A DNA stretch of 64,000 bases, taken from positions 631,408-695,407 of the forward strand of contig CM040442.1 in assembly GCA_022749755.1 (NCBI GenBank), given 5' to 3'. This document shows positions 24,821-61,776 of this stretch, piece by piece. A model generated the notes under the pieces. That model was not told the origin of the DNA. It ran no database searches and saw nothing but the letters and a program-made list of their open reading frames with translations. The position numbers were made by a program, and so were the translations under genes. Source of the stretch: Azadirachta indica. Taxonomy: Eukaryota > Streptophyta > Magnoliopsida > Sapindales > Meliaceae. Position 1 is the stretch's first letter, and each line of letters starts with the position of its first letter.

Positions 24821-24881
24821 GGAAGGCGGTTCTTGCTACAATTCATTGAATGATTTGGCAGAGAAAATCTTATCACTCTGA
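24821..24881 (+). pseudogene. 3' end of a UGT gene, left copy (cut by gap)
   Basis: Encodes the last 19 residues of a family-1 glycosyltransferase (GGSCYNSLNDLAEKILSL, stop TGA 24879-24881), identical to the end of the exon at 60414-61294. Everything upstream is missing because the arm begins at the N gap, mid-codon. Confidence 0.9.
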
Positions 24882-26250
24882 TCAAAGTAACATCGAGGTG
24901 GACCACCTTTACTTTTAACCGCCAGTACTTGTAATATATTATACCTATAAGATCTTAGGCTTGAACAATTGGCTTGCTTATAAATTTTACATTTGATGTT
25001 TATAATTATAAAGATTTGTTGACGTTTTGAGCACTGGCATATATTTTAGCTCTCATGATATTGATTCTCTAAAATGTTACAATGGTTTGGTGTGAAATCA
25101 TTTTGAGCTTGGAACAAGGTTTCCACTCCACGGAAAAGTTGTTATTGTGAATATTTTACTCCTACAAACAATCATCCCTGTCTTTAAAAATAAATTAAAA
25201 TTTTAATCCTATAAAATTTTTTAAATGTGATGTGTCATAATCTTCTTTCAAAATTTAGAAAAGATTAAAATTAGAGGTTAATATCTCTAGTATTAACGAG
25301 ACTGAGCTTTACATGCCTATATAAGGGATAATCTAATAACTCTTATATACATGTAATGTTGATTACACAAATCAATTTAAATGTTAATGCAAAAATATTT
25401 TCCAACATTTTGCTTTTTTTTTAACTGTCGATTATCTCATTTTATCAAAATTTTATAAAAGTCTTTCCAACTACAATAATCAACAAAATGTTCTAGAGAG
25501 TTTGGTTTAGTTGTTAACATAATATCACCAATCTCAGTAAGCTTGCAGAAGAAAAGTTTCCTAAAACTTTTTGTAGTAGCGCATCATATACAAATTTCAT
25601 GCGTAAACAGGCCACTTTGTCTTCCAGTCCAATAAATAAGAACGCTATGTCATCCAAAAAACTAACATTAAGGTGACATGTCATGATCCGACATTACAAT
25701 AATAAAAAAGATAAAAATAAAAGAACTCGTTTTAGGATCCGTTTGGTGTAGTTTTTCAAATAAATTTTTTTAAAGTAGTGCTTTTATTTGTAAAATTTTT
25801 ATGAGTAGAGTTTTTAACAAAAAGTTATTAATCGTTTGGTTATTACAAATAACTTTTGAGAAAATTTGAATAATTACTTTAATAGACAAATTTTTAATAT
25901 TTTATTTTAAAGAAATAACGCAGAATTTTTAAAATAAAATAAAAGTATTTTAAATAATTTTATCTTTTAAAAAAGTTAGAGAAGTTTTACTGTTAAAAAC
26001 CTAAATTTTAAGTTTCTTCCAATAGAAGAAAAATAACTTTTTTAATTCTAAAATTTTTTTTTATTATCAATTAAATGACATTAAAAAATTTTAAAAGAAT
26101 TTTTATTATTAAAAAATTTTTTTTAATCAATAAAAATGTCAAATTAAAGGGACAATTAATTTCTTTTCAATTGATTTAAGGCTAGGCCTTTCCCATTCCG
26201 TGTAACCGTACTTGGGCTTTAAATCCCTAAACAAGCAAAATACAGAACCT
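24882..26250. other. Intergenic, AT-rich (left arm)
   Basis: No gene seen. It holds the substitutions that separate the two arms (25089, 25119, 25790, 25824 and nearby). GGATCCGTTTGGTG at 25735 resembles a MITE terminus, with AT-rich sequence following, but no clear partner end was found. Confidence 0.4.
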
Positions 26251-26265
26251 TCTAGCGAGCCCAAA

Positions 26266-26286
26266 AAGTTTCAACTTCTAGAATTC
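26266..26286 (+). promoter_or_regulatory. Heat-shock element upstream of HSP20 copy A
   Basis: TTCTAGAATTC at 26276-26286 contains alternating TTC/GAA units, preceded by AGTTTC. A TATA-like TATATATA follows at 26373-26380. The order fits a heat-inducible sHSP promoter, although the gene it serves is broken. Confidence 0.5.
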
Positions 26287-26490
26287 ACCAGAGCCTTTAT
26301 CAATCAAAACGAAAACGAAAACGAAAACGATCGTCGATTGCCGCAGACTTACTAGAAATCTCCTGCGCTTGCTATATATACACAAGACTGAGAAGCCTTC
26401 ATATCAGCAAGTTCGAGCAACCAGTCATCGGTATCAGTATTCAGTCTAATACCTTCATTTCATTTAAACCTCTCACTCTTCGAGAAAAGA

Positions 26491-26971
26491 GGTAGTTGAT
26501 TCCAAGCTTCTTTGGAAACCGACGCAGTAACATTTTTGATCCATTCTCCCTCGACATTTGGGATCCATCAGGGACATCCCTTTTCCTTCGTCTTCTTCTT
26601 CACTTTCCTCTTACTTCCCTCAATAGACCTCTACTTTTGTAAACACTCGGGTGGACTGGAAGGAGACCTCGGAAGCTCACGTGTTCAAGGCCGATCTTCC
26701 GAGTCTGAAGAAAGAGGAAGTAAAAGTGGAGATTAAAGATGATAGGGTGCTCCAGATTAGCAGACAGAGGAATATTGAGAAGGAAGACAAGAACGACACT
26801 TGGCATCGCGTGGAGCGTAGCAGTGGCATGTTCACGAGGAGGTTTAGGCTGCTGGAGAATGTGAAAATGGATCAGATTAAGGCTTCAATGGAGAATGGAG
26901 TTCTTACTGTTACTGTTCCCAAGGCAGAAGTTAAAAAGCCTTATATGAAGGCCATTGAAATTTCTGGTTGA
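26491..26971 (+). pseudogene. Class I small heat-shock protein (HSP20) pseudogene A, left arm
   Basis: The alpha-crystallin domain is intact from about 26640 ([20 protein letters not shown]) through [13 protein letters not shown] and [10 protein letters not shown] to a stop at 26969-26971. It ends KAIEISG, usual for class I sHSPs, cytosolic holdase chaperones. The N-terminal arm is broken: the start ATG is gone (GGTAGTTGATTCC where ATGTCGTTGATTCC is expected). A base is missing in the WDPF segment near 26568. A TAG directly precedes the domain near 26622. A short product from an internal ATG would lack the first domain strands. Confidence 0.75.
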
Positions 26972-27190
26972 AGGAATCTCTGTTTGTTATCTTCCTAATT
27001 CAAAAAAAAAAAAAAATGTGTGATGTTATAGAATAATAGATTATCAGGTGTGTAAGTAATATTGTTCTTAATTAATGTAATAATAAAGTGAGGTTACTTT
27101 CAATACATCTTTTGCAATTTGTACTGATAGTTCTTTTAAACTTTGTATTCTCGCTTTAGATTTGATTTTAGCAAAACCTCAAAGCTGAAG

Positions 27191-27526
27191 TCATCCGACA
27201 TATTTGCCGGATTTATATAGAGATATTGTGCGTCCTTCAGAGATTGGATTTATAACCTTATGAACTCTTGAAAATAATGAAGCATCATCAAATTTGACGA
27301 TAGATATATAATGCTTGACTATTAACTCAAACATAATAGCAGCAGTTTTCAAGAAATAATAGAAAAGGGTTTGAGGATCTTCAAGGAATGGAATATGACA
27401 GGACTGCAGGACACTTCGTATAATTAGAGTTGATTTCCCAAACTTGACATAATAATTAGCAGTTAAATTGAAGGAGTAGTCTTCATGGAAGAGCTCCAAA
27501 TGAAGTTTTGAACCATTCACGTCCAC
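27191..27526 (-). other. Uncharacterised 111-codon frame (left arm)
   Basis: Minus-strand frame with ordinary amino-acid composition (SKLHLELFHEDYSFNL at its start). I recognise no family. The corresponding region 3' of HSP20 copy B (34050-34230) is clearly homologous at DNA level but its frame is broken, which argues against a conserved protein. Probably non-coding. Confidence 0.2.
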
Positions 27527-28502
27527 TAAATCATATGCTCTTTAATTATTAAATTATAGGCCATTGTTTAATATCTATTATTATTTTGATTGCAAAAATA
27601 CCTTGATGATATGAACTTCACTCAAAACCTGTGCTAGATTCTATGTAAGCTGCCCTTACCAATAACAGAGGTTCACTTGCTAATTCTATGTAGTCTCTAT
27701 ATAGGCCTGTCTCGGTTGATTGAATTCGATTAAATTCCTGTGTTCCATCACCCGGTTCCATCATTGTCCACTAGAACAAATATTTGCATTTCAGTCTTGT
27801 GACACTCTCATCTGCAGTTGTGACCTTTATCTGTTGTATAGCCTAAATGTCGCAAAGTTTCTATTGATATGTTTGAGACAAACTCCATTGATGTTTGTAG
27901 ATCTATCAATTTGATGTTCAAGAAGCCCAAGAGAGGAAAGTATCTGATTCTTTCTTTCCAATTTATTTTAATTTCCAGCATTTTTCACTGTCTTGCCTGG
28001 TGATTCTCTTGTTCCTGTAATTCATCCCCATTTGACACAAACTACCAAAAGAAGTTTATATAATGATTTAAGTCCTCCATTAGAATTATAGAAAGGTACC
28101 TTCTTGTCATAAGCTTTCTCAAGTTTTGTTGGTTATCACCTCTATTTCTTCACATGCATATTTGTTGATGAAGTTACAAACAAAGCCTTTTCTTCTATTC
28201 ATATTTGGCCATATGTATGTACACACTTATTTGTGGAGTAACAGATTTATTTGGAATAACTGTTTAACAAGGATGAAATTTTAGGCCTCCCTTCAAGGTT
28301 CTGTCTTTACAGAAAAAAATATAACATGTCCGTTTAATGACCATTGAGACCCGAAAAATAATCAATATTTTTCCAACTATTAGTGTATTTGTACTTCCAA
28401 TTCTTTTATTTCTTATACTCATTACCTTGCTCTTCTTCTAAATGCTAAAACAAAGCGATATCACATTATCATGTTATGTTAATCAGGTCCTATTTTGTAA
28501 AG

Positions 28503-31500
28503 GGATAAGAATCCTCTCCTCGTCTTGTGCCTCTTAAACTTTTGAGGATCCAGTGACACATGGTAAATAAGGCTTGAGATTATATTATACCAATTTCACT
28601 ATTTAATTCTAAAACTTACCATATTAAATAGTTAAAACAAAAAAAATTCTAAATCACCTATTTTCATTATCCCTAAATTGAACATCCGTCTATTTTCTTA
28701 CCCCTTCATCGCCAATCGCTTCTCTTTCTTCGTCCTCATTTTCCTTCGCCAAGAACCTACTTTGTCCTTGCTTCTCTTCTTCCCTCTTCATTTTTTATAG
28801 CTATTTTTCTCATTTTAATAAGATTTCTGGAAAATACAAATTGGTTGCAGATTTTGGAATGCTGAGGTTGCGGATTTTGAAGATATAAATTAGGATGTGA
28901 AGTTAAGTTACTGTATTTCTATTTGTTATGGCCTTAGTAATTGAGTTTTGAAGTTTGAATGAAACGTTATAGAATTTTCATAATTATAGCTGATGTTGGG
29001 ATTGCTTATTTGCTTGTATTTTCTTAATGTTGCAAATTAAAACCTCTTGATCTTCTTGCAAATTGCAAATGGCACAAATGGAAAAATTCAATGCATTGGC
29101 AATATGTCTAGTTCTAGCACTTTTTTCTGCAGTCGTCTCTGGGCAAGCTTTTTGCTTGGCTCCGACACTATCCTTGCGCAAATAAAGGAGCTACAGTCGC
29201 AAATTCTGTAGGAAACTCTAAAGTTATGATTTGCTTATCGTTGTTCTTGTCTTGGCTTGCTCTTGTCCTAGGTGGCAATTCGGATTCATAGCTCGTTTTT
29301 GGATCATGTCAAACAATTAATGGTGTCAACAGTCCTCTACTTAAATATGATCTATATATTAATTGTTTCAAGAGTTTTCAACTCAAATAGGACTTATTTA
29401 TTAAACGAATGTTTGGAATATGACCTATTTATTAATTATGTTAGGAGTTTTCAACTCAAATATGACCCATTTATTAAATGGGTGACATAATATGACGCAT
29501 TAAGTAATTTATTAATTGAATAATTGTGTCAGATTGACCCGTTTATTATTCGAATAATCAAGTATACGACCCATTAATAGGGTATATGATCTATTTATTA
29601 ATTGTGTTAAGGATTTTTAACCTATACACAATCTATTTATTAAACAGATGACACGATAAGACCCATTAACCCATTTATTAATCAGGTAATCATGTCGGAT
29701 TGACCCGTTTATTATTCGGATAATTAGGTTAACCTGTTTAATTTAAATCAATTTATACATGACCTGATTGTTTGGATAATTGAGTTGATCTGTTAACTTC
29801 ATAACACGACTTATTAACTTACATATTAATCGAATAATCTTGTCAGATTGACTCGTTAACTTGACTCATTTATTAATCGTGTTAAGGGTTTTTTTTAATT
29901 CAGACACAACTCATTTATTAAACCAGTGTTTTGAACATGACCCATTTATTAATCGTGTCAAGAGTTTTCAACTCAAATACGAACCATTTATTAAATAAGT
30001 GACACGACACAACCCATTAACCCATTTATTAATTGAGTAATTGTGTCAGATTGACTTATTTATTATTCCGATAATCAGATACACGACTCATTAATAGGAT
30101 ACATGATCCATTTATTAATCATGTCAAGGGTTTTCAACTCAGACATGACTCATTTATTAAACACGACATGACCCATTAACCCATTTATTAGTCGAATAAT
30201 CGTGTCAGATCGACCCGTTTAATATTCAGATAATTGGGTTAACCCGTTAACTCATTTAATTTAAATCAATCCGCACATGATCCATTTATTAAATGGGTGA
30301 CACGACACGATAATTTAACCTATTTATTAATCGGGTAATCATGTCGGATTGACCCATTTATTATTCGAATAATCGGTTTTAACCAAATAACTTCACAACA
30401 CGACCTATTAACCACTTTATTAATCATATAATTGTGTTGAATTGACCCGTTTATTATTCAGATAATCAAGTTGTCAAAAGTTTTCAATTCAGACACAACC
30501 TATTTATTAAACGGATAACACAACATGACCCATTAACCCATTTATTAATTGGATAATCGTGTTGGATTGACCCGTTTGTTATTCGAATAATTGGATTGAT
30601 CCGTTAACCTATTTAATTTTAAATAAAAAAATTGTAATGTAGATAATCGAATCCAAGAGCTTAGTTTAATACAATTTTAACTATTGAGTTACAACTATAT
30701 TTTTATTTAAATTGTGAAAACATTATTTATTTATATCATATTTTAAGTTTTTCTTATATTATAATGTTACTTATTTTACATATAATTATTTTAAATTGTG
30801 AATGCTAAATTATTACAAGTACTTAAAATAAAATTATTTAATGAAAAGTATTTTCAAATTAAAAAATTACTAACAATAAAAAAATTAAAAAATTAAAAAC
30901 ATAATGTAATGCATTTATTTCTTTTCTTTTTTATTTTAATTTTTACAATAAAATCAAAGAAGAAAATAGAAAAAATTTAAATTTCTTGTAAAAACTATTT
31001 ATGAACATGAAGTTTTATAAAACTTGATTATGGATAAGATTTTTTTGTAAACTTTTATTATCTAAAAACATATTATTCAATTATTATTCTTAAAAAATAA
31101 AAAATAATTATAGTTTTAATAAAAATTAGTTCTTTTTTTTTATATTTTTTTGCATTATTTCTTACAAAAAGTTTAAATAAATTTTTTCTTTTCATTTTTT
31201 GATTTAGATTTATTTTTAATTAGATAATTTTGTTCTCACTATTGTTTTAAATTTTTGGAATCATTATTCATTTAATCATTCATCTAATGTATATAGTATA
31301 TAACATGGTGTATGTATATTTATTTATTGATTAAGTTAATTTAGTAGTTGAAAATTTAATTTTTGAGTCTCACATACTTATAAATATTTAATATAACCAT
31401 TTTGACACAATTATTATTTTTTATAACATATTAAATAGTTATTAATTTTCATAATCTTATTAATGTAATAGTCATACATTAATATTATTAATTAATAAGT

Positions 31501-32746
31501 GTTAGCAATTAAATTTGAAAGTTTTAGAAAAATAACATGCTAATTAACTAATACGTCACCTCTATTATCATTTATCAATGTACAAAGTATAAATTATTTA
31601 CCAATAGACTTAAATTACTATATATATGCAAATATTCAAATTGTGTTACAATAGATTTAATTTATAATAAGTTTTTTATCATATATTAATTAAGATAATG
31701 TCAAAATTTTTATCAAAATGAAAAGTATTAATTTAATTAATTTATCTTCACTTTTTTCTTAAAATAATTAGCCTCCAATTATAATAAAAAGTAAATACAT
31801 TATTGCAGCAATATGCCTTAAGGTATTTATGTTGATACACTTTAGTTTGAAAATTAAATGATACACTTTACCATATAAGTGTACTATATACTTAAGCCAC
31901 ATTATAACTTTGAAGATTTGGATTCGAATCTTAATAGTCACAAATTTTTTTAAAATATTAACTATATCATTAAATGGTTTAATTGGTTGACATGACCCAA
32001 TTATTTGAATAATAACCGTATCATTAAACGAGTTGGCAAGTTGACACGACTTAATTATCCAAATAATGATCGTATCATTAAACACGTTGGCGGGTTGAAA
32101 AGGTAAAATTCACATACAATTCGATTAATAAAATAGGTGATTAAATAAATTGGCGATTGACGCGATTCGATTACTTGAATAATAATCGTGTCATTAAACG
32201 GGTTGGCAAGTTGACATGACCTAATTACCCGAATATTAATCATGTTATTAAATTGATTAGTGAGTTGAGAAAGTCCAACCCGTACACAACCCGATTAATA
32301 AATAGATGACAGAATCTAACACGATTATTAATCGTGTTGACTGATCTCAATTCAAATTTGAATTTTTTATGTCAGTTTAGTATCGTGTTCGCGGATTAGG
32401 TCTAAAATTGTCACCCATACTTATACTATATATATAATTTTTATTTCAACTTTGGCTTAAAGTTGTTGAGTGGTGGATTCTTGGCAAAGGAAAATGAGGA
32501 GGGAGGAAGAGAAGCGGCCGTCGATGAAGGGAGAAAAAGATAGATGGATGTTAAATTTGGAGATAACGAAAATAGGTAATTTAGATTTTTTTTTTAACTA
32601 TTTAATATGATAATTTTTTATATGGCAGGTTTTTAAATTAAATAGTTAAATTTGTATAATATAATCTCCAACTCTTAATTTTTCTCTTTGCCATGCGTCA
32701 CTGTATCCTCAGAAGCCCCGGAGACATAAGGAGAGGATCCTTATCC
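28503..32746. mobile_element. Mutator-like/foldback element with long terminal inverted repeats (left arm)
   Basis: Terminal inverted repeats of about 270-300 bp: 28503-28800 (GGATAAGAATCCTCTCC...) and 32455-32746 (...GGAGAGGATCCTTATCC). They share blocks such as CTATTTAAT, ATTTTC.TTATC and CTTC.TCGCC.AATC..TTCTC. Inside the left TIR, 29270-30620 is an array of irregularly spaced variants of GACCCGTTTATTATTCGAATAATC and CATTTATTAATCGTGTCA. Inside the right TIR, 31975-32400 holds similar words in inverted orientation. The AT-rich core (30620-31970) has no transposase frame. Non-autonomous. No clear target duplication could be read. Confidence 0.65.
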
Positions 32747-32829
32747 TCCAATAACTGCTTGAAAACTAGAAAACATTAATAGCAAGAAATTTCGGCAATT
32801 TGTTACAAAAATAATTTCAATGCTGCAGA

Positions 32830-34630
32830 TGGAGAACGTTTAAACAGAGTGGTGGAGGGTACTCTTTTCTACGAGAGAGTTTCCTAAAATCACTTCCAAC
32901 ACAATATCATATTTGAATCCAGTCGTCCAATCCAATAAATAAAGACGCCTTGTCATCCAGAAAAAATAATACTGAGACAACATGTTGTGACCCCGATGAG
33001 TGAAGTGATAACAATATATATATATATATATATATATATGTAAATAAAAAAAAATTAAAACATAGAACTTCATTTGACCGACTTAACGCTGGGCCTCTCC
33101 TTGTTTCCCGTTGTATGTAATAAAGCTTGGGCTTGACAGCCCAACACAACCGACATCCAAAGCGTTCTAGTTAACCCGAGATTATAACTCGGAGAATTTA
33201 GAACCTTCGTTAACCAAAACTAAAACGATTTCGATTGCCCGCGAAATTACTAGAAATGTCTTGCGCTTCTTAAATATTACCCAACACTTGTTCATGCTTC
33301 ATATTAGCAAGTTCAAGCAGGCAATCATCAGCATCAACAGTTAATCAAACAGAGTGAGAAAAAATGTCGTTGATTCCAAGCTTCTTCGGAAACCGACGCA
33401 GTTTAGCAGCGTCTTTGATCCATTTTCTCTTGATGTTTGGGATCCATTCAGGGACTTTTCTTTCCCTTCTTCTTTATCTTCACTTTCCTTTCAGTTCCCT
33501 TAAGAAACCTCTGCTTTTGTGAATGCCTGCGTAGACTGGAAAGAAACCCCTGAAGCTTACGTTTTCAAGGCCGATCTTCCGGGACTGAAGAAAGAGGAAG
33601 TGAAGGTAGAGATTGAAGATAACAGGGTGTTTCAAATTGGCGGACAGAGGAATACTGAGAAGGGAGACAAGAACGATACCTGGCATCACGTCGAGCGCAG
33701 TAGTGGTATGTTCTCAAGGAGGTTTAGGCTGCCAGAGAATGTGAAAAAGGACCAGATTAAGGCTCCAATGGCGAATGGAGTTCTTACTGTTATAGTTCCA
33801 AAGGTAGAAGTGAAGAAGCCTGATGTCAAGGCTATTGAAGTCTCTGGTTGAACGAATATCTGGTCTCTATCTTCCTTCATTCATAATTAATTATAAAACA
33901 ATTATATCATATTGTGATGTAATATTGTGATGGTCTGAGATAATATACACTGCGTCTTTATGAAAGGTGTATAATTTTAATGTAATAATGAAATGGATTT
34001 CCTTTAATGTGGCTTTTGCACAAAAATTTAAAAGTTTTTAGGCAAAGCCTCAATATGAAGCCATCGGATGCGGATGCATGTGTAGGATCTTAAGCCGCCC
34101 TCAGATTTGTAACCTTATCAAGTATCCAAAATACGGATGTATATTTGACAATAAACTCCAACATAGTACCGGCCGTACGTCTCCAAGAAATTAAGTATCA
34201 GGGGGTTCCAAGCTAAATAACGGCTCTTGCTTCAATTAGTGCTGCAGAAAGGTTTATGAAAAAATATTGACTTCCATGAAAGAAAACATTCCTGTCCAAA
34301 CAAATCTTACCTTCGTACATTGCCGCCAACATGATATTTAATGAGGCCGTTCTTTAGTAATACTGGATTGCAAAAATTCCTGGATGATATGAAGCTCGCC
34401 AGAAATGACGCTAAATCTACGCAGGGTTCGGCGAAGGCAGCTCTGACCAATAACAGAATTTCATTTTCTATAATCTAGGTAGTCTTGTATGAGGTTCTCT
34501 CTGTTCGATTATTAAACATGTTCTTTACTTTATATAATAATGAAGTCCTTTACTGAAGAGAGAAAGGGGTCAAAATTGTAGAAAGAGGTGTCTTCTTTTC
34601 ATAAGCTTTCTCAAGTTTTCTTGGTTATAT
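32830..34630 (+). repeat. HSP20 tandem-duplication unit 2 (left arm)
   Basis: Partner of 25500-28140, carrying HSP20 copy B. A TA microsatellite (about 33014-33038) lies upstream of the gene. Confidence 0.7.
33364..33851 (+). pseudogene. Class I small heat-shock protein (HSP20) pseudogene B, left arm
   Basis: The ATG at 33364 opens [12 protein letters not shown], the class I sHSP N-terminus. An insertion at about 33402 (TTTAGC) then shifts the frame away from the expected SSVFDPFSLDVWDPF, which continues in another frame. A TAA at about 33502 interrupts the link just before ETSAFVNA. The alpha-crystallin domain ([17 protein letters not shown] ... HHVERSSG ... RRFRLPENV ... NGVLTVIVP) is open to the stop at 33849-33851, ending KAIEVSG. 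Two independent N-terminal lesions make a full protein impossible. The domain has remained open, as in copy A. Confidence 0.8.
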
Positions 34631-35005
34631 GTAACTGCCTTGACCCTGATGTTGTATCTCATAATTGTGAAAGTAAATTGTTTAGAAAAATTTACTAAGA
34701 ATGATGGCAAATGAACAATGTAAAATAAGAAATACAATTTACTTTGATAAAATAATTCAATTACATCAATCCTTACATAGGCAAATAAAGTTACCCATGA
34801 TCATATGTGTAACTACCCATTACTATCCATGATTGCCATGACAAAACATGCGCCACTAATGCTAAAAAAATGCAATATTAAAATAACCACTAAACATGTT
34901 TTCCTAAACTAATGTAAAGAACATGCCCATTGTTTCTTAAAAATAGGAAATAAACTACCCATTAAATTATAACATTCCCTCCCTTAAACTGAATGTTTTC
35001 AAACA

Positions 35006-38000
35006 TCAGTTTAAAGAAAAAAAATAAGAAACACGCTTCCTCAAAATTGAATTCTTCCAATTACAAACACGAAGGAGCTTCCTGAGCCTCAAGAATACTG
35101 CCAATTTGAGGGGCTTGGTAAATATATCAGCAACCTGATCTTCACTCTTGTAGTAAGTAAGATCAATTGCCCCATCCTCTACCAAATTACGCAAGAAGTG
35201 ATACCTCTCATCTATATGCTTACTTTGTTCATATAGAACAGGAATTATCACGGAAAAAGAAATTAGGCCCTTCCTGCTTGAAATAAAGTTCTTCAAGAAT
35301 CTTTCTCAACCAAATAGCTTGACAAACACAAGATGTTGCAGCTACGTATTCGGCTTCAGCAGTTGATAAAGTCACAATAGGCTGCTTCTTTGATGACCAT
35401 GAAACAGCTCCTGAACCCATTATAAAAACATAACCAAAAGTGCTCTCTGTCATCAAGATCTCCAGTATAATCATTGTCTGTGAACCCAATTAAATCTGAC
35501 TTTTCTCCTGGCTTGTAAAACAATCCAAAATCAATTGTTCCCTACAAGTATCTAAAAATTCTTTTGGCAGCTAAAAGATGCAACTCCTTTAGATTTTCCA
35601 TGTACCTGCTAATTCAAGCAATAGCATGCATAATATCTGGGCGAGTTGCGATTAAATACATTAAATTCCCTATCATCTGCTTATAAAGCATGCTGTCAAC
35701 TTTCTTTCCTGCTGGATCTTTCACAAGCTTCAAACCCATCTCTATTGGCGTACTAAGAGAATTACAATTCTTCATCTGGAACCTATCTAAAATTTCTCGC
35801 ACATATTTATTTTGAGAAATAAAAATTCCCGTAGAAGATTGCACCACTTCAATGCCAAGAAAATAATGCATCACACCAAGATCAGACATATCAAACTCCA
35901 TCATCGTAGACTATTTAAAACATTCAAGCATGGCCTTATCATTTCCAACATAAATAAGATCACCTACATATGAGCACACAATAATAATTTTTCCTTCATC
36001 ATCAATTTTAATATAAAGTGTGTGCTCATATAGGTATTTGTGGAATCCTTCTTTTAAAAAATAAGCATCTATAGAGGGTGTACCAAGCTCTCGGTGCTTG
36101 TTTTAGGCCATACAAAGCCTTTTTCAGCTTATAAACTTTATGTTCATTACCAAACTTCACACAACCGGAGGGTTGATCAACAAATACCTGTTCCTACAAT
36201 TCTTCATGCAGAAACGCTGATTTCACATCTAACTGAAAAATAGGCCATGAGTTTTGTGTTGCCATTGCAATCACCAGTCTAATTGTGTCATGTCTGACAA
36301 CTGGAGCAAAAACTTCTCTGTAACCAACACCAAATTCTTGCTTATAGCCTTTAGCTACAAGTCGTGCCTTATATTTGTCAGCTTCATCGTTCTCCTTTAT
36401 CTTTGTCTTGTAAACTCACTTGACACAAATTGTTTTATTTCCTTTTGGAAGATCTGTTAATTCCCAAGTGTTCTTTTAATAGCTGCAATTTCATCATCCT
36501 TTGCCTTCTGCCATTTTAATTCCTTGACAGCATCTTTAAAACTGAAGAATCACGATATGAGAAAAAAGCAAAATATGTGAGTGGGTTTTCAGATTGATCA
36601 ACTCCAGGTACTTCATAATCTAGTATCCATACTTGTCTTCTTCTGATGTGTAACGGTCGTGAGCTGCTCGCAGTATCTTCTCGTCTATCTGCTTCAATCG
36701 GGCTTTGTTGAGCTGTTGGAATTGGATTTTGAGCTGCTGTGAAACTTGTTGCTCGTTTTCTGAAACCTGTTGCACTATCCCATCATTTTCATCGCCAAAA
36801 TCTGCTTGAATTTCCCATCTAGTAATATCTTCATTCCATGCCCACGTCTTTTCTTCATCAAAAATGACATCGCCGCTGATAATGATTTTCTTAGTGTTAG
36901 GATTATATAGCCTGTAGGCTTTTAACTGATCACTAACACCAAAGAAAATACATTTTTCCCCTTTTTCATCCATCTTCTTCTTCTTCTCATCTAGAATATG
37001 GGCATAAGCAATACACCCAAAAATTCTGAAATAATCTACTGCTGGTCTTCATTCGCTCCAAGGTTCTTCTGAAGTCATATTTTAAACAGCAAGAATGGGA
37101 CTTCTATTCCAAATATGAATACTCCAGTTAACTGCTTCAGGCCAAAAACTTTTTGAAATGCCGCTTCCTTCTAAAAGGCTCCACATTATGTTTAGAATTG
37201 TGCGATTTTTCCTTTCACAGACACCATTTTGTTGAGGCGTGTAAGCTGCCGTAAGTTACCTCTTGATTCCATGCATCTCACAAAAATCTGCAAATTCTTG
37301 TGAGTTGTATTCCCCACCACGATCAATACGAAGAACTTTTATAAGACTACCAGCTTCTTTCTCAGCTACTGCTTTGAAATTCTTAAAAGTTGTAAAAGCT
37401 TCTGATTTTTCCTGCACGAAATGAACCCAAGTCTTCCGACTATAATCATCAACGAACGTAATGAAATACCGTTTACCTTCATTAGACATGGGACTTATGG
37501 GCCCGCATAGATCAAAATGAACTAGTTCTAACGCTTTCTTTGCTCTCCAAGATTTTCCTTTTGGAAAGCAATTGCGATGTTGTTTGTTAACAACACAATC
37601 TTCTCAAATTTTAGAGGGAGATGCAAATTGTGGAAGACCTGACACCATTTTCTTCTGCTGTAAAGTCTTTAAACCCCCAAAATGTAGGTGCCCATATCGA
37701 AGATGATATAGCCAAGCTGGATCTTTCAATTTTGCTGAGAAGCAGGAATGCTAGCATTTTGAAGATATAAAGGAAACATGCGATTTATTATTATGCTAAC
37801 TTTAGCAATCAATCCCAGCTTGGAACCCTGAATTCTGCATACCCTTTCTCTTGAAGTTGACCCACACTGAGTAGATTTGATTTAAAATCTGGAACATAAA
37901 GAACATTAGAGACAACTTGACTACGCTTATTCTTTGTTTGGATTTTTACCTTCCCTTTTCCCATGACAGTGATTGTAGAATTATCTCCAAACTTCACGAT

Positions 38001-38060
38001 ATTGCGGAAAGATTCATCCAAATCAGAAAATGCAGCTTTATCTCTGCACATGTGGTTGCC
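35006..38060 (-). pseudogene. Copia pol, broken (left arm)
   Basis: Pieces in order: protease remnant lacking a readable DTG/DSG triad just before HMCRDKAAF (about 38050); NVLYVPDFKSNLLSVGQL; integrase core with HFDLCGP (one frame), FVDDYSRKTWV and RIDRGGEYNSQEF (37489-37256); reverse transcriptase with ARLVAKGY and QLDVKSAFLH in broken frames and the catalytic box YVDD altered to YVGD (about 35955); GVMHYFLGIEV (35904-35614); and RNase H with SWSSKKQPIVTLSTAEAEY. At least six stops or frameshifts are present. The right-arm copy shares the same lesions. Confidence 0.8.
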
Positions 38061-50200: not shown

Positions 50201-50285
50201 GAGGCTCAGGAAGCTCCTTCGTGTTTGTAATTGGAAGAATTCAATTTTGAGGAAGCGTGTTTCTTATTTTTTTTCTTTAAACTGA
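47231..50285 (+). pseudogene. Copia pol, broken (right arm)
   Basis: Mirror of 35006-38060. Pieces: pre-integrase NVLYVPDFKSNLLSVG (about 47383-47433), integrase FVDDYSRKTWV and RIDRGGEY (47802-48035), reverse transcriptase with YVGD in place of YVDD (49320-49334) and GVMHYFLGIEV (49387-49677), RNase H STAEAEYVAA (49802-50062) and the tail VADIFTKPL (49995-50285). All stops and frame changes are shared with the left arm, so they predate the duplication. Confidence 0.8.
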
Positions 50286-50662
50286 TGTTTGAAAACATTC
50301 AGTTTAAGGGAGGGAATGTTATAATTTAATGGGTAGTTTATTTCCTATTTTTAAGAAACAATGGGCATGTTCTTTACATTAGTTTAGGAAAACATGTTTA
50401 GTGGTTATTTTAATATTGCATTTTTTTAGCATTAGTGGCGCATGTTTTGTCATGGCAATCATGGATAGTAATGGGTAGTTACACATATGATCATGGGTAA
50501 CTTTATTTGCCTATGTAAGGATTGATGTAATTGAATTATTTTATCAAAGTAAATTGTATTTCTTATTTTACATTGTTCATTTGCCATCATTCTTAGTAAA
50601 TTTTTCTAAACAATTTACTTTCACAATTATGAGATACAACATCAGGGTCAAGGCAGTTACAT

Positions 50663-52463
50663 ATAACCAAGAAAACTTGAGAAAGCTTATGAAAAGAAGA
50701 CACCTCTTTCTACAATTTTGACCCCTTTCTCTCTTCAGTAAAGGACTTCATTATTATATAAAGTAAAGAACATGTTTAATAATCGAACAGAGAGAACCTC
50801 ATACAAGACTACCTAGATTATAGAAAATGAAATTCTGTTATTGGTCAGAGCTGCCTTCGCCGAACCCTGCGTAGATTTAGCGTCATTTCTGGCGAGCTTC
50901 ATATCATCCAGGAATTTTTGCAATCCAGTATTACTAAAGAACGGCCTCATTAAATATCATGTTGGCGGCAATGTACGAAGGTAAGATTTGTTTGGACAGG
51001 AATGTTTTCTTTCATGGAAGTCAATATTTTTTCATAAACCTTTCTGCAGCACTAATTGAAGCAAGAGCCGTTATTTAGCTTGGAACCCCCTGATACTTAA
51101 TTTCTTGGAGACGTACGGCCGGTACTATGTTGGAGTTTATTGTCAAATATACATCCGTATTTTGGATACTTGATAAGGTTACAAATCTGAGGGCGGCTTA
51201 AGATCCTACACATGCATCCGCATCCGATGGCTTCATATTGAGGCTTTGCCTAAAAACTTTTAAATTTTTGTGCAAAAGCCACATTAAAGGAAATCCATTT
51301 CATTATTACATTAAAATTATACACCTTTCATAAAGACGCAGTGTATATTATCTCAGACCATCACAATATTACATCACAATATGATATAATTGTTTTTTAT
51401 AATTAATTATGAATGAAGGAAGATAGAGACCAGATATTCGTTCAACCAGAGACTTCAATAGCCTTGACATCAGGCTTCTTCACTTCTACCTTTGGAACTA
51501 TAACAGTAAGAACTCCATTCGCCATTGGAGCCTTAATCTGGTCCTTTTTCACATTCTCTGGCAGCCTAAACCTCCTTGAGAACATACCACTACTGCGCTC
51601 GACGTGATGCCAGGTATCGTTCTTGTCTCCCTTCTCAGTATTCCTCTGTCCGCCAATTTGAAACACCCTGTTATCTTCAATCTCTACCTTCACTTCCTCT
51701 TTCTTCAGTCCCGGAAGATCGGCCTTGAAAACGTAAGCTTCAGGGGTTTCTTTCCAGTCTACGCAGGCATTCACAAAAGCAGAGGTTTCTTAAGGGAACT
51801 GAAAGGAAAGTGAAGATAAAGAAGAAGGGAAAGAAAAGTCCCTGAATGGATCCCAAACATCAAGAGAAAATGGATCAAAGACGCTGCTAAACTGCGTCGG
51901 TTTCCGAAGAAGCTTGGAATCAACGACATTTTTTCTCACTCTGTTTGATTAACTGTTGATGCTGATGATTGCCTGCTTGAACTTGCTAATATGAAGCATG
52001 AACAAGTGTTGGGTAATATTTAAGAAGCGCAAGACATTTCTAGTAATTTCGCGGGCAATCGAAATCGTTTTAGTTTTGGTTAACGAAGGTTCTAAATTCT
52101 CCGAGTTATAATCTCGGGTTAACTAGAACGCTTTGGATGTCGGTTGTGTTGGGCTGTCAAGCCCAAGCTTTATTACATACAACGGGAAACAAGGAGAGGC
52201 CCAGCGTTAAGTCGGTCAAATGAAGTTCTATGTTTTAATTTTTTTTTTTTATTTACATATATATATATATATATATATATTGTTATCACTTCACTCATCG
52301 GGGTCACAACATGTTGTCTCAGTATTATTTTTTCTGGATGACAAGGCGTCTTTATTTATTGGATTGGACGACTGGATTCAAATATGATATTGTGTTGGAA
52401 GTGATTTTAGGAAAAACTCTCTCGTAGAAAAGAGTACCCTCCACCACTCTGTTTAAACGTTCT
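50663..52463 (-). repeat. HSP20 tandem-duplication unit 2 (right arm)
   Basis: Mirror of 32830-34630, with the direct-repeat partner at about 57150-59790 in this arm. Confidence 0.65.
51442..51929 (-). pseudogene. Class I HSP20 pseudogene B, right arm
   Basis: Mirror of 33364-33851. Same ATG (51929), same frame-shifting insertion and same TAA before the alpha-crystallin domain. Domain residues are identical to the left copy, ending KAIEVSG at 51442. Confidence 0.8.
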
Positions 52464-52549
52464 CCATCTGCAGCATTGAAATTATTTTTGTAACAAATTG
52501 CCGAAATTTCTTGCTATTAATGTTTTCTAGTTTTCAAGCAGTTATTGGA

Positions 52550-55500
52550 GGATAAGGATCCTCTCCTTATGTCTCCGGGGCTTCTGAGGATACAGTGACG
52601 CATGGCAAAGAGAAAAATTAAGAGTTGAGATTATATTATACAAATTTAACTATTTAATTTAAAAACCTGCCATATAAAAAATTATCATATTAAATAGTTA
52701 AAAAAAAAATCTAAATTACCTATTTTCGTTATCTCCAAATTTAACATCCATCTATCTTTTTCTCCCTTCATCGACGGCCGCTTCTCTTCCTCCCTCCTCA
52801 TTTTCCTTTGCCAAGAATCCACCACTCAACAACTTTAAGCCAAAGTTGAAATAAAAATTATATATATAGTATAAGTATGGGTGACAATTTTAGACCTAAT
52901 CCGCGAACACGATACTAAACTGACATAAAAATTTCAAATTTGAATTGAGATCAGTCAACACGATTAATAATCGTGTTAGATTCTGTCATCTATTTATTAA
53001 TCGGGTTGTGTACGGGTTGGACTTTCTCAACTCACTAATCAATTTAATAACATGATTAATATTCGGGTAATTAGGTCATGTCAACTTGCCAACCCGTTTA
53101 ATGACACGATTATTATTCAAGTAATCGAATCGCGTCAATCGCCAATTTATTTAATCACCTATTTTATTAATCGAATTGTATGTGAATTTTACCTTTTCAA
53201 CCCGCCAACGTGTTTAATGATACGATCATTATTTGGATAATTAAGTCGTGTCAACTTGCCAACTCGTTTAATGATACGGTTATTATTCAAATAATTGGGT
53301 CATGTCAACCAATTAAACCATTTAATGATATAGTTAATATTTTAAAAAAATTTGTGACTATTAAGATTCGAATCCAAATCTTCAAAGTTATAATGTGGCT
53401 TAAGTATATAGTACACTTATATGGTAAAGTGTATCATTTAATTTTCAAACTAAAGTGTATCAACATAAATACCTTAAGGCATATTGCTGCAATAATGTAT
53501 TTACTTTTTATTATAATTGGAGGCTAATTATTTTAAGAAAAAAGTGAAGATAAATTAATTAAATTAATACTTTTCATTTTGATAAAAATTTTGACATTAT
53601 CTTAATTAATATATGATAAAAAACTTATTATAAATTAAATCTATTGTAACACAATTTGAATATTTGCATATATATAGTAATTTAAGTCTATTGGTAAATA
53701 ATTTATACTTTGTACATTGATAAATGATAATAGAGGTGACGTATTAGTTAATTAGCATGTTATTTTTCTAAAACTTTCAAATTTAATTGCTAACACTTAT
53801 TAATTAATAATATTAATGTATGACTATTACATTAATAAGATTATGAAAATTAATAACTATTTAATATGTTATAAAAAATAATAATTGTGTCAAAATGGTT
53901 ATATTAAATATTTATAAGTATGTGAGACTCAAAAATTAAATTTTCAACTACTAAATTAACTTAATCAATAAATAAATATACATACACCATGTTATATACT
54001 ATATACATTAGATGAATGATTAAATGAATAATGATTCCAAAAATTTAAAACAATAGTGAGAACAAAATTATCTAATTAAAAATAAATCTAAATCAAAAAA
54101 TGAAAAGAAAAAATTTATTTAAACTTTTTGTAAGAAATAATGCAAAAAAATATAAAAATAAAGAACTAATTTTTATTAAAACTATAATTATTTTTATTTT
54201 TAAGAATAATAATTGAATAATATGTTTTTAGATAATAAAAGTTTACAAAAAAATCTTATCCATAATCAAGTTTTATAAAACTTCATGTTCATAAATAGTT
54301 TTTACAAGAAATTTAAATTTTTTCTATTTTCTTCTTTGATTTTATTGTAAAAATTAAAATAAAAAAGAAAAGAAATAAATGCATTACATTATGTTTTTAA
54401 TTTTTTAATTTTTTTATTGTTAGTAATTTTTTAATTTGAAAATACTTTTCATTAAATAATTTTATTTTAAGTACTTGTAATAATTTAGCATTCACAATTT
54501 AAAATAATTATATGTAAAATAAGTAACATTATAATATAAGAAAAACTTAAAATATGATATAAATAAATAATGTTTTCACAATTTAAATAAAAATATAGTT
54601 GTAACTCAATAGTTAAAATTGTATTAAACTAAGCTCTTGGATTCGATTATCTACATTACAATTTTTTTATTTAAATTAAATAGGTTAACGGATCAATCCA
54701 ATTATTCGAATAACAAACGGGTCAATCCAACACGATTATCCAATTAATAAATGGGTTAATGGGTCATGTTGTGTTATCCGTTTAATAAATAGGTTGTGTC
54801 TGAATTGAAAACTTTTGACAACTTGATTATCTGAATAATAAACGGGTCAATTCAACACAATTATATGATTAATAAAGTGGTTAATAGGTCGTGTTGTGAA
54901 GTTATTTGGTTAAACCGATTATTCGAATAATAAATGGGTCAATCCGACATGATTACCCGATTAATAAATAGGTTAAATTATCGTGTCGTGTCACCCATTT
55001 AATAAATGGATCATGTGCGGATTGATTTAAATTAAATGAGTTAACGGGTTAACCCAATTATCTGAATATTAAACGGGTCGATCTGACACGATTATTCGAC
55101 TAATAAATGGGTTAATGGGTCATGTCGTGTTTAATAAATGAGTCATGTCTGAGTTGAAAACCCTTGACATGATTAATAAATGGATCATGTATCCTATTAA
55201 TGAGTCGTGTATCTGATTATCGGAATAATAAATAAGTCAATCTGACACAATTACTCAATTAATAAATGGGTTAATGGGTTGTGTCGTGTCACTTATTTAA
55301 TAAATGGTTCGTATTTGAGTTGAAAACTCTTGACACGATTAATAAATGGGTCATGTTCAAAACACTGGTTTAATAAATGAGTTGTGTCTGAATTTAAAAA
55401 CCCTTAACACGATTAATAAATGAGTCAAGTTAACGAGTCAATCTGACAAGATTATTCGATTAATATGTAAGTTAATAAGTCGTGTTATGAAGTTAACAGA

Positions 55501-56789
55501 TCAACTCAATTATCCAAACAATCAGGTCATGTATAAATTGATTTAAATTAAACAGGTTAACCTAATTATCCGAATAATAAACGGGTCAATCCGACATGAT
55601 TACCTGATTAATAAATGGGTTAATGGGTCTTATCGTGTCATCTGTTTAATAAATAGATTGTGTATAGGTTAAAAATCCTTAACACAATTAATAAATAGAT
55701 CATATACCCTATTAATGGGTCGTATACTTGATTATTCGAATAATAAACGGGTCAATCTGACACAATTATTCAATTAATAAATTACTTAATGCGTCATATT
55801 ATGTCACCCATTTAATAAATGGGTCATATTTGAGTTGAAAACTCCTAACATAATTAATAAATAGGTCATATTCCAAACATTCGTTTAATAAATAAGTCCT
55901 ATTTGAGTTGAAAACTCTTGAAACAATTAATATATAGATCATATTTAAGTAGAGGACTGTTGACACCATTAATTGTTTGACATGATCCAAAAACGAGCTA
56001 TGAATCCGAATTGCCACCTAGGACAAGAGCAAGCCAAGACAAGAAGAACAACGATAAGCAAATCATAACTTTAGAGTTTCCTACAGAATTTGCGACTGTA
56101 GCTCCTTTATTTGCGCAAGGATAGTGTCGGAGCCAAGCAAAAAGCTTGCCCAGAGACGACTGCAGAAAAAAGTGCTAGAACTAGACATATTGCCAATGCA
56201 TTGAATTTTTCCATTTGTGCCATTTGCAATTTGCAAGAAGATCAAGAGGTTTTAATTTGCAACATTAAGAAAATACAAGCAAATAAGCAATCCCAACATC
56301 AGCTATAATTATGAAAATTCTATAACGTTTCATTCAAACTTCAAAACTCAATTACTAAGGCCATAACAAATAGAAATACAGTAACTTAACTTCACATCCT
56401 AATTTATATCTTCAAAATCCGCAACCTCAGCATTCCAAAATCTGCAACCAATTTGTATTTTCCAGAAATCTTATTAAAATGAGAAAAATAGCTATAAAAA
56501 ATGAAGAGGGAAGAAGAGAAGCAAGGACAAAGTAGGTTCTTGGCGAAGGAAAATGAGGACGAAGAAAGAGAAGCGATTGGCGATGAAGGGGTAAGAAAAT
56601 AGACGGATGTTCAATTTAGGGATAATGAAAATAGGTGATTTAGAATTTTTTTTGTTTTAACTATTTAATATGGTAAGTTTTAGAATTAAATAGTGAAATT
56701 GGTATAATATAATCTCAAGCCTTATTTACCATGTGTCACTGGATCCTCAAAAGTTTAAGAGGCACAAGACGAGGAGAGGATTCTTATCC
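52550..56789. mobile_element. Mutator-like/foldback element (right arm)
   Basis: Mirror of 28503-32746: terminal repeats at 52550-52845 and about 56490-56789, with subterminal arrays at 52895-53320 and 54670-56020. The length differs from the left copy by a few bases through small indels (for example AAATTTCAAATTTG near 52928). No transposase frame. Confidence 0.65.
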
Positions 56790-57765
56790 CTTTACAAAAT
56801 AGGACCTGATTAACATAACATGATAATGTGATATCGCTTTGTTTTAGCATTTAGAAGAAGAGCAAGGTAATGAGTATAAGAAATAAAAGAATTGGAAGTA
56901 CAAATACACTAATAGTTGGAAAAATATTGATTATTTTTCGGGTCTCAATGGTCATTAAACGGACATGTTATATTTTTTTCTGTAAAGACAGAACCTTGAA
57001 GGGAGGCCTAAAATTTCATCCTTGTTAAACAGTTATTCCAAATAAATCTGTTACTCCACAAATAAGTGTGTACATACATATGGCCAAATATGAATAGAAG
57101 AAAAGGCTTTGTTTGTAACTTCATCAACAAATATGCATGTGAAGAAATAGAGGTGATAACCAACAAAACTTGAGAAAGCTTATGACAAGAAGGTACCTTT
57201 CTATAATTCTAATGGAGGACTTAAATCATTATATAAACTTCTTTTGGTAGTTTGTGTCAAATGGGGATGAATTACAGGAACAAGAGAATCACCAGGCAAG
57301 ACAGTGAAAAATGCTGGAAATTAAAATAAATTGGAAAGAAAGAATCAGATACTTTCCTCTCTTGGGCTTCTTGAACATCAAATTGATAGATCTACAAACA
57401 TCAATGGAGTTTGTCTCAAACATATCAATAGAAACTTTGCGACATTTAGGCTATACAACAGATAAAGGTCACAACTGCAGATGAGAGTGTCACAAGACTG
57501 AAATGCAAATATTTGTTCTAGTGGACAATGATGGAACCGGGTGATGGAACACAGGAATTTAATCGAATTCAATCAACCGAGACAGGCCTATATAGAGACT
57601 ACATAGAATTAGCAAGTGAACCTCTGTTATTGGTAAGGGCAGCTTACATAGAATCTAGCACAGGTTTTGAGTGAAGTTCATATCATCAAGGTATTTTTGC
57701 AATCAAAATAATAATAGATATTAAACAATGGCCTATAATTTAATAATTAAAGAGCATATGATTTA

Positions 57766-58101
57766 GTGGACGTGAATGGTTCAAAACTTCATTTGGAGCT
57801 CTTCCATGAAGACTACTCCTTCAATTTAACTGCTAATTATTATGTCAAGTTTGGGAAATCAACTCTAATTATACGAAGTGTCCTGCAGTCCTGTCATATT
57901 CCATTCCTTGAAGATCCTCAAACCCTTTTCTATTATTTCTTGAAAACTGCTGCTATTATGTTTGAGTTAATAGTCAAGCATTATATATCTATCGTCAAAT
58001 TTGATGATGCTTCATTATTTTCAAGAGTTCATAAGGTTATAAATCCAATCTCTGAAGGACGCACAATATCTCTATATAAATCCGGCAAATATGTCGGATG
58101 A
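57766..58101 (+). other. Uncharacterised 111-codon frame (right arm)
   Basis: Mirror of 27191-27526 with identical translation. No family recognised. Broken in the paralogous block, so probably not a gene. Confidence 0.2.
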
Positions 58102-58321
58102 CTTCAGCTTTGAGGTTTTGCTAAAATCAAATCTAAAGCGAGAATACAAAGTTTAAAAGAACTATCAGTACAAATTGCAAAAGATGTATTGAAAGTAACC
58201 TCACTTTATTATTACATTAATTAAGAACAATATTACTTACACACCTGATAATCTATTATTCTATAACATCACACATTTTTTTTTTTTTTTTGAATTAGGA
58301 AGATAACAAACAGAGATTCCT

Positions 58322-58802
58322 TCAACCAGAAATTTCAATGGCCTTCATATAAGGCTTTTTAACTTCTGCCTTGGGAACAGTAACAGTAAGAACTCCATTC
58401 TCCATTGAAGCCTTAATCTGATCCATTTTCACATTCTCCAGCAGCCTAAACCTCCTCGTGAACATGCCACTGCTACGCTCCACGCGATGCCAAGTGTCGT
58501 TCTTGTCTTCCTTCTCAATATTCCTCTGTCTGCTAATCTGGAGCACCCTATCATCTTTAATCTCCACTTTTACTTCCTCTTTCTTCAGACTCGGAAGATC
58601 GGCCTTGAACACGTGAGCTTCCGAGGTCTCCTTCCAGTCCACCCGAGTGTTTACAAAAGTAGAGGTCTATTGAGGGAAGTAAGAGGAAAGTGAAGAAGAA
58701 GACGAAGGAAAAGGGATGTCCCTGATGGATCCCAAATGTCGAGGGAGAATGGATCAAAAATGTTACTGCGTCGGTTTCCAAAGAAGCTTGGAATCAACTA
58801 CC
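58322..58802 (-). pseudogene. Class I HSP20 pseudogene A, right arm
   Basis: Mirror of 26491-26971, with the same lost start codon, deletion and TAG in the N-terminal arm and the same open alpha-crystallin domain. The heat-shock element is mirrored near 59007-59027. Confidence 0.75.
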
Positions 58803-59042
58803 TCTTTTCTCGAAGAGTGAGAGGTTTAAATGAAATGAAGGTATTAGACTGAATACTGATACCGATGACTGGTTGCTCGAACTTGCTGATATGAAGGCTT
58901 CTCAGTCTTGTGTATATATAGCAAGCGCAGGAGATTTCTAGTAAGTCTGCGGCAATCGACGATCGTTTTCGTTTTCGTTTTCGTTTTGATTGATAAAGGC
59001 TCTGGTGAATTCTAGAAGTTGAAACTTTTTGGGCTCGCTAGA

Positions 59043-60413
59043 AGGTTCTGTATTTTGCTTGTTTAGGGATTTAAAGCCCAAGTACGGTTACACGGAATGG
59101 GAAAGGCCTAGCCTTAAATCAATTGAAAAGAAATTAATTGTCCCTTTAATTTGACATTTTTATTGATTAAAAAAATTTTTTTTTAATAATAAAAATTCTT
59201 TTAAAATTTTTTAATGTCATTTAATTGATAATAAAAAAAAATTTTAGAATTAAAAAAGTTATTTTTCTTCTATTGGAAGAAACTTAAAATTTAGGTTTTT
59301 AACAGTAAAACTTCTCTAACTTTTTTAAAAGATAAAATTATTTAAAATACTTTTATTTTATTTTAAAAATTCTGCGTTATTTCTTTAAAATAAAATATTA
59401 AAAATTTGTCTATTAAAGTAATTATTCAAATTTTCTCAAAAGTTATTTGTAATAACCAAACGATTAATAAACTTTTGTTAAAAACTCTACTCATAAAAAT
59501 TTTACAAGTAAAAGCACTACTTTAAAAAAATTTATTTGAAAAACTACACCAAACGGATCCTAAAACGAGTTCTTTTATTTTTATCTTTTTTATTATTGTA
59601 ATGTCGGATCATGACATGTCACCTTAATGTTAGTTTTTTGGATGACATAGCGTTCTTATTTATTGGACTGGAAGACAAAGTGGCCTGTTTACGCATGAAA
59701 TTTGTATATGATGCGCTACTACAAAAAGTTTTAGGAAACTTTTCTTCTGCAAGCTTACTGAGATTGGTGATATTATGTTAACAACTAAACCAAACTCTCT
59801 AGAACATTTTGTTGATTATTGTAGTTGGAAAGACTTTTATAAAATTTTGATAAAATGAGATAATCGACAGTTAAAAAAAAAGCAAAATGTTGGAAAATAT
59901 TTTTGCATTAACATTTAAATTGATTTGTGTAATCAACATTACATGTATATAAGAGTTATTAGATTATCCCTTATATAGGCATGTAAAGCTCAGTCTCGTT
60001 AATACTAGAGATATTAACCTCTAATTTTAATCTTTTCTAAATTTTAAAGAAGATTATGACACATCACATTTAAAAAATTTTATAGGATTAAAATTTTAAT
60101 TTATTTTTAAAGACAGGGATGATTGTTTGTAGGAGTAAAATATTCACAATAACAACTTTTCCGTGGAGTGGAAACCTGGTTCCAAGCTCAAAATGATTTC
60201 ACACCAGAACCATTGTAACATTTTAGAGAATCAATATCATGAGAGCTAAAATATATGCCAGTGCTCAAAACGTCAACAAATCTTTATAATTATAAACATC
60301 AAATGTAAAATTTATAAGCAAGCCAATTGTTCAAGCCTAAGATCTTATAGGTATAATATATTACAAGTACTGGCGGTTAAAAGTAAAGGTGGTCCACCTC
60401 GATGTTACTTTGA
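59043..60413. other. Intergenic, AT-rich (right arm)
   Basis: Mirror of 24882-26250. No gene. The substitutions that distinguish the arms lie near 59465-60205. Confidence 0.4.
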
Positions 60414-61776
60414 TCAGAGTGATAAGATTTTCTCTGCCAAATCATTCAATGAATTGTAGCAAGAACCGCCTTCCCTCAGAGTCAGCTCCAGTTTCTCCTT
60501 CAAAAGTATGGCCCTTTTCCTCATCTCTTCACCTTCTGTTTCCACCATGAGTCTTTTTACAGCTTTCTCTATCTTCCCTCTCTCAAACTCGCTCTCCAAT
60601 TCCAGGCCCACGTTCCACACATAACAGATGTACCTTACGCTCAGGTTTTGATCCCCAAAAAATGGCTTGCACAGCATTGGAACTCCTTCAGAAATGCTTT
60701 CGAGAGTAGAATTCCAACCACAATGGCTCCAAAACCCACCCACAGCACCGTGAGCTAGCACTTCCTTTTGCGGTGCCCATTCCGCAATGCAACCTCTTTC
60801 TCCCACTCTTTCTTGAAAATTGTTTGGTAATAGTTCCAGGCAATTTGAGCTACGAACCAGACCGCGTCCAACCACCCACAAGAAAGGCTGCTCACTGTTG
60901 GCTAGCCCCCAAGCCATCTCAAGTAGTTCTTTCTCATCCACGCTAGCCATGCTGCCGAAACTTACATAAATGACAGACTTCGAGGCTTGCTTGTTTAGCC
61001 AAGAAATACAATCTGTATCTTCCTTTGGTAATGAACTAGAAATGGCTGGTATTAATTTGTGAAAAGGGCCCAGGGTGAATGTTGGAGCTGAGAAAAGTTC
61101 TTGAACTTTTGTTAGTGCTTCTTTTTCTAGGAAATCCACTGTGTTCACAATGATTGCTGAACACCTTTTCATCGAGTCTGTCAGAGCAGCTCTCAACTCT
61201 AACATAGCATCAGCTGTAGTTTCTCTCGTTAAAGCAACTAGCTTCTTAAGCCGGAGGAACTGGAGCTCGGGCCCCTGGTCCTGTGACATAGATTCTGTTG
61301 CACAATTGGCATATAAGCAATATAATATAAAACAAGACTATAAGACAATCAGAAAGGTGCATGTAGCTTTTATAAATGAATGATTATCAAAGAGTTTGAG
61401 AGAACAAGCCGGATTGGGCTAATTACTCTGTTTCAAATGGACTCATTTCGCACATTTCAGGGGCTAACAGATATAGCACACTCATCTAGATTTAAATATA
61501 GTTGAACGATTTCAATATGGAATTAATTATTCATACTAAAATGTAGGGATATGAAAAACATACCCAGGTAGGAGATGTAACCTTGCTCATGTGGACGAGG
61601 GAAGACAGCAAAGGCTAAAATTGTGACAGCGGGGCTTGTACGCACACTAATTCCTGGAAGCTTGAAATGATCAGCAACACTTTGAGCGAAGTACATAAGC
61701 CCATCATAGATGATACAGGAGATCTGATCGCGAGGATCCTCTGCTTTCGACATCCGTTGTATGCATTCGATCAACG
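60414..61776 (-). CDS. UDP-glycosyltransferase, UGT76-like, 5' end lost in gap
   Basis: Exon 2 is 60414-61294 (acceptor CAACAG at 61300-61295) and exon 1 is present only from 61564 to the N gap at 61777. Phases agree. Exon 1 holds SCIIYDGLMYFAQSVADHF, with the probable catalytic-relay Asp. Exon 2 holds FTLGPFHKL, SVIYVSFGSM and a complete PSPG box ([17 protein letters not shown]...HCGWNS...FGDQ). The N-terminal catalytic His segment must lie in the gap. It is a paralogue, clearly diverged from the arm genes, in the same intron arrangement. No lesion is visible. The last 61 bp form the outermost part of the inverted repeat. Confidence 0.88.

Follow-up and report, generated by a model that had tools for sequence, protein, structure and literature searches.

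The 64,000-nucleotide stretch of the Azadirachta indica genome analysed here (the window; contig CM040442.1 of assembly GCA_022749755.1, C3:631,408-695,407) contains a segment, bounded by two N gaps and referred to below as the contig, that consists almost entirely of one long inverted repeat. Each arm of this repeat carries an inner UGT gene, a degenerate copia element, HSP20 copies and a fold-back-like element, and the contig ends on its right side within an outer UGT gene. The UGT, HSP20 and copia calls of an initial annotation of this DNA are backed by Pfam domains: UDPGT is present in the second exons of the inner and outer UGT genes, and HSP20 and the copia gag, integrase core and SH3 domains were also detected. 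Here, we describe a comparison of the contig with itself and with the assembly (280.8 Mb in 21 contigs, among them C3, C7 and C13). The genome search scores only the best candidates, and its counts of places are lower bounds; the stretches fetched for closer comparison were 60 kb from C13, 50 kb from the 19.5-Mb region of C3 and 30 kb adjoining the window. The results point to a contig in which a single locus of C13 is represented twice, out and back. Its parts, in window coordinates, are as follows:

24821-61776, no strand: the whole contig, 36,956 bp between two N gaps, collinear throughout with C13:15,890,793-15,910,133, out and back
24721-24820, no strand: gap of 100 N that cuts off the left arm, which starts at the first base after it
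24821-42426, minus strand: left arm, taken as the fold-back copy (self-BLASTN); matches C13:15,908,831-15,891,237 on the minus strand at 99.74%
42425-42458, no strand: perfect palindrome of 34 bp that marks the turn in the sequence, on the left edge of the spacer; predicted DNA hairpin of -18.2 kcal/mol (z -6.55)
42427-42867, plus strand: spacer of 441 bp, 100% identical to the C13 sequence that naturally lies left of the right arm
42868-60474, plus strand: right arm, in the natural order of C13
60475-61776, plus strand: outer flank without a mirror image, 1,302 bp, comprising most of the outer UGT gene; 100% identical to C13:15,908,832-15,910,133
61777-61876, no strand: gap of 100 N at the right end of the contig, which cuts the outer UGT gene, apparently within its first exon (open reading frame list)

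Comparison of the window with itself by BLASTN revealed one long inverted pair, 24821-42426 against 60474-42868, that is 99.767% identical over 17,623 columns, with 8 mismatches, 20 gap openings and 33 gap bases. In a four-way MAFFT alignment the two arms differ by 16 substitutions and 18 indels, 14 of the latter lying in runs or microsatellites. An inverted repeat of 17.6 kb at 99.8% identity cannot have originated by chance, and the near-perfect palindrome with 17.6-kb arms and a 441-bp spacer that the initial annotation had reported is thus borne out. The N gap at which the left arm was said to start is also seen, and the second gap, at 61777-61876, had gone unmentioned. Arms and spacer together occupy 35,654 of the 36,956 bases of the contig, all but the last 1,302 bp, and the fold centre lies near its middle, at 0.482 (48.2%) of its length.

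The same locus is found, without gaps, on C13. The spacer, right arm and outer flank (window 42424-61776) correspond to C13:15,890,793-15,910,133 at 99.79% identity, and the left arm corresponds to the same stretch reversed. Neither an inverted partner of the arm nor any N is present in the fetched 60 kb of C13. The spacer has its second full copy at C13:15,890,796-15,891,236 and a partial copy (bases 195-441) at C3:19,499,367, directly after an N gap. Among the matches listed, the end of the inner UGT gene has four near-identical places, one in each arm, one on C13 and one at C3:19.5 Mb. Left of the turn, C13:15,888,801-15,890,790 is found full-length once among the matches listed, on C13; past the right end of the contig, C13:15,910,134-15,912,000 is found full-length only on C13 and at C3:19.52 Mb among the matches listed. 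Four more HSP20 matches lie on C13 to the left of the spacer and, because they keep the orientation of those in the arm, the order on C13 makes sense as a tandem cluster. The assembly carries the locus in three places, within the contig, on C13 and at C3:19.5 Mb, with identities of 99.7-99.8%. These comparisons indicate that both halves of the palindrome derive from one place, which is single copy on C13, and the copy at C3:19.5 Mb, which is not palindromic, is taken as allelic to it; the latter is probably the other haplotype. C13 is rich in UGT and HSP20 paralogues at 15.85-15.99 and 16.51-16.53 Mb, the natural home of the locus. The copy at C3:19.5 Mb carries a 3,389-bp long terminal repeat (LTR) element at C3:19,517,948-19,521,336, inside the second exon of the outer UGT gene, with LTRs of 628 bp that are 99.4% alike and the sequence ATCA repeated at its ends. 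This element is absent from both C13 and the contig in the window.

The boundaries of the contig give no link to its present position. The left end corresponds to C13:15,908,831 and the right end to C13:15,910,133, both interior to the C13 locus, and therefore nothing ties the contig to C3. A genuine palindrome is recognised by unique, differing flanks on both arms; here the left arm ends at the N gap without a flank of its own, and the flank of the right arm belongs to the C13 locus. The content of the contig is wholly contained elsewhere in the assembly. The initial annotation had raised the prospect of a real giant plant palindrome that doubles a UGT gene, and this proposal is not supported, given a single-copy, gap-free locus on C13 and a contig that has no anchor outside that locus.

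The adjoining contigs in the window are likewise redundant:

1-24720, plus strand: neighbouring contig on the left, redundant with C7:2.43-2.45 Mb where sampled
61877-64000, plus strand: neighbouring contig on the right, with an LRR_RPS2 domain, redundant with C3:5.75 Mb (99.45% over 905 columns)

The left neighbour was compared by samples rather than aligned over its full length. One sample covers the last 1.5 kb, up to 24720, and another the 1.8 kb of 10001-11800; both are 100% identical (rounded) to C7, offset by about 1.792 Mb, and the last 1,985 columns of this contig match C7 at 99.85%. Past the points at which the neighbouring contigs stop, the sequence on C7 and at C3:5.75 Mb carries on, free of N over the roughly 2 kb that were fetched. 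Further near-identical stretches to sequence beside the right contig are found at C3:0.72, 2.3 and 5.8 Mb. The assembly may be poorly purged.

The relationship between the arms and the other copies was resolved in the four-way alignment of the right arm, the left arm, C13 and C3:19.5 Mb, which contains 63 variable blocks. Indel blocks private to one sequence number 6 in the right arm, 7 in the left arm, 6 in C13 and 4 in C3:19.5 Mb, and private single-nucleotide polymorphism (SNP) blocks number 0, 3, 4 and 22, respectively. The other 11 blocks show other patterns, and in one of the 63, an indel, both arms share a state against agreeing C13 and C3:19.5 Mb. Indel events are 18 between the arms, 19 between right arm and C13 and 18 between left arm and C13; the corresponding substitutions are 16, 8 and 15. 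As these counts are near equal, neither arm is closer to the other than to C13. Gene conversion between the arms, offered in the initial annotation as one possible account of their likeness, would make them closer to one another than to any other copy, and the distances from arm to C13 are no greater than those from arm to arm. At the 30 informative SNP blocks, where C13 differs from C3:19.5 Mb, both arms carry the C13 letters in 22; in one further block only the left arm does, the right arm matching neither copy.

The point at which the sequence turns back is exact. It lies at the 34-bp palindrome, the longest in the window; the other palindromes of at least 16 bp comprise AT runs no longer than 26 bp and a few sites of 16 bp. 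Allowing up to 3 mismatches, the 34-bp palindrome was found at 2 places in the genome, in the contig and on C13. At the switch, GTG is common to C13, the end of the arm and the junction, a microhomology of 3 bp. The polarity that follows from the hairpin, with the right arm natural and the left arm copied, agrees with the polarity given by C13.

These observations suggest that the palindrome is, with high probability, an artefact of assembly or library construction, in which one C13 UGT/HSP20 locus was read out and back. It is supported by what was observed here: the locus is single copy on C13, the turn point is exact, neither end of the contig is anchored, the neighbours are redundant where sampled, and the distances among the arms and C13 are nearly equal. 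A DNA molecule from this locus, or its reads, would have started at about C13:15,910,133 and run to the left, across the arm and then the 441-bp spacer. On reaching the outer edge of the 34-bp palindrome, the copying end would have switched strand at the 3-bp match (GTG/CAC) to the inner end of the arm and returned over the same 17.6 kb. We infer that this switch did not occur in the plant but arose in the tube or during read processing, and that the hairpin helped it. Correction of the chimeric read by normal reads of the locus could then have produced two near-identical arms with residual run-length errors. This corrected chimera, or else a contig assembled from it, would have been kept as a redundant contig of 37 kb and scaffolded on C3 between other redundant contigs. 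The fold centre at 48.2% of the contig, which here stands in for the molecule, is what is expected of a fold-back read. A simple missed hairpin adapter as the sole cause was considered and rejected, since the centre of the palindrome is 441 bp of genuine C13 DNA. The suspicion voiced in the initial annotation of an assembly chimera or a duplicated contig, which it took the N gap to favour, is supported, with the refinement that mostly one haplotype would be folded back instead of two haplotypes meeting head to head; both arms equal C13 at 22 of the 30 SNP blocks.

Several observations weigh against an artefact of this kind. Both arms carry the letters of C3:19.5 Mb at 4 of the 30 SNP blocks, the left arm equals C3:19.5 Mb and the right arm C13 at a further 3 (one of them in an AT-rich run), and both arms side with C3:19.5 Mb and not with C13 in 6 indel blocks. 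Such discordant blocks could be genuine, although we attribute them to consensus errors or haplotype mixing, and to errors in C13. The offset of 441 bp at the turn exceeds the 200-bp default applied to fold-back reads by Heinz, Meyerson and Li (2026, PMC12870357), so the rule for such reads does not cover the present case, despite its similar working. The same source finds virtually no fold-backs in PacBio HiFi reads. Template switching with a hairpin and microhomology is also the trace of a real event in a cell. Finally, the contig at C3:19,499,367 starts in mid-spacer, 163 bp from the hairpin, and two contigs therefore break or turn within 200 bp of one spot, which the artefact does not account for.

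The likeliest alternative is a real, very young inverted duplication, heterozygous, somatic or sited elsewhere, that was formed by replication template switching at the 34-bp hairpin and whose arms are alike because they are new. The turn at a perfect palindrome with 3 bp of microhomology, and a spacer that is genuine genomic DNA of the plant, are both consistent with it, and template switching at inverted repeats, there short and interrupted, is the core of origin-dependent inverted-repeat amplification (ODIRA; PMC10766186). The C13 copy, which both arms match at 22 of the 30 SNP blocks, is nevertheless single copy and gap-free, the other haplotype is probably represented by the copy at C3:19.5 Mb, and neither end of the contig carries a flank from outside the C13 locus. 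We consider such a duplication improbable, and slightly more so in the specific form of a true fold-back duplication of the UGT/HSP20 locus of C13 that is carried by some cells or by one homologue, began at the hairpin and was caught before mutation parted the arms.

The remaining alternatives fare worse. Two haplotypes of the locus might have been joined head to head by the assembler, which has retained redundant contigs, and the 3 SNP blocks at which the arms differ, the left agreeing with C3:19.5 Mb and the right with C13, are of the kind that such a join would leave. If the left arm were the other haplotype, however, it should follow C3:19.5 Mb at most blocks, and it does so at 7 of the 30 (4 of them in common with the right arm), following C13 at 23; moreover, a normal haplotype offers nothing that would give an inverted join at the hairpin. 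A join of this kind is very unlikely, and is refuted for the most part should C3:19.5 Mb be the second haplotype. Next to no credence is given to an old palindrome whose arms gene conversion has kept similar, in the manner of the willow W or mammalian Y chromosomes. The length and identity of the arms do resemble willow W.P1 (arms of about 20 kb, more than 99% alike; PMC7023750), but the left arm has no outer boundary, and conversion between the arms fails to explain why they are as close to a single-copy locus on another chromosome as to each other. It was rejected on the distances to C13.

Two further features of the arms, as read from their sequence, are as follows:

40653-42353, plus strand: inner UGT gene, read as two exons from open reading frames, with PF00201 in the second exon; mirror image at 42941-44641, minus strand
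34683-39398, minus strand: degenerate copia element with LTR remnants about 82.5% alike; mirror image at 45890-50608

Pfam gave no match in the first exon of the inner UGT gene. With LTR remnants only about 82.5% alike, the copia element is far older than the divergence of the arms. The HSP20 copies at 26470-26971 and 33340-33851 both look degenerate, as neither has its N-terminal start region and its alpha-crystallin domain within a single open frame. The fold-back-like element at 28576-32668, which is mirrored in the right arm, has inverted ends of about 185-195 bp with 83-87% identity and an interior of arrays of 42-170-bp tandem repeats. ARAGORN returned two tRNA-Asn(att) matches in AT-rich sequence, each the mirror image of the other, and the Rfam search returned nothing at the gathering score. 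Elsewhere in the window, an imperfect inverted repeat lies at 5447-7760, with arms of 632 and 651 bp that are 78.6% alike and about 1 kb between them.

The analysis removes a claim that is likely false: neither a doubled, convergent UGT pair nor a giant plant palindrome should be inferred here. In this part of the C3 scaffold, UGT and HSP20 genes, as well as genes in the neighbouring contigs, have probably been overcounted. The comparison also provides a worked test for similar cases, which asks whether the content is single copy elsewhere, whether the ends of the contig leave the locus, and how differences between the arms compare with those between arm and locus. Should the duplication be real, the 34-bp hairpin would be a natural fold-back site and directly testable.

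Several known systems come close. Fold-back reads make up about 0.55-0.6% of Oxford Nanopore Technologies (ONT) genomic reads (Heinz, Meyerson and Li 2026, PMC12870357), and palindromes are found in 0.5% of unamplified PacBio reads (Pacasus 2018, PMC6218980). As in the contig, the second half of a fold-back read maps near the first on the opposite strand, with the fold near the middle; unlike it, the segments lie by default within 200 bp of each other, against 441 bp here, and the contig is not a read. Chimeras made by phi29 polymerase (Lasken and Stockwell 2007, PMC1855051; PMC6218980) are likewise inverted and lack a few hundred bases on one side of the turn, and more than 70% of their junctions have 2-21 complementary bases at the switch, compared with 3 here; however, there is no evidence that the plant DNA was amplified, and the arms here reach 17.6 kb. 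False duplications (Ko et al. 2022, PMC9516828) resemble the contig in that the locus occurs in three places, next to other redundant contigs, whereas the fold-back within the contig goes beyond what haplotype duplication alone gives. The palindromes of the willow W chromosome (PMC7023750) come from a plant, and their arms of about 20 kb are on average more than 99% alike, with a spacer of a few kb. They lie in a female-specific sex-determining region, whereas the contig described here lacks an anchor and holds content that is found in single copy on another chromosome. Because plant palindromes of this size are known from the willow W, a real palindrome at this locus would not be the first.

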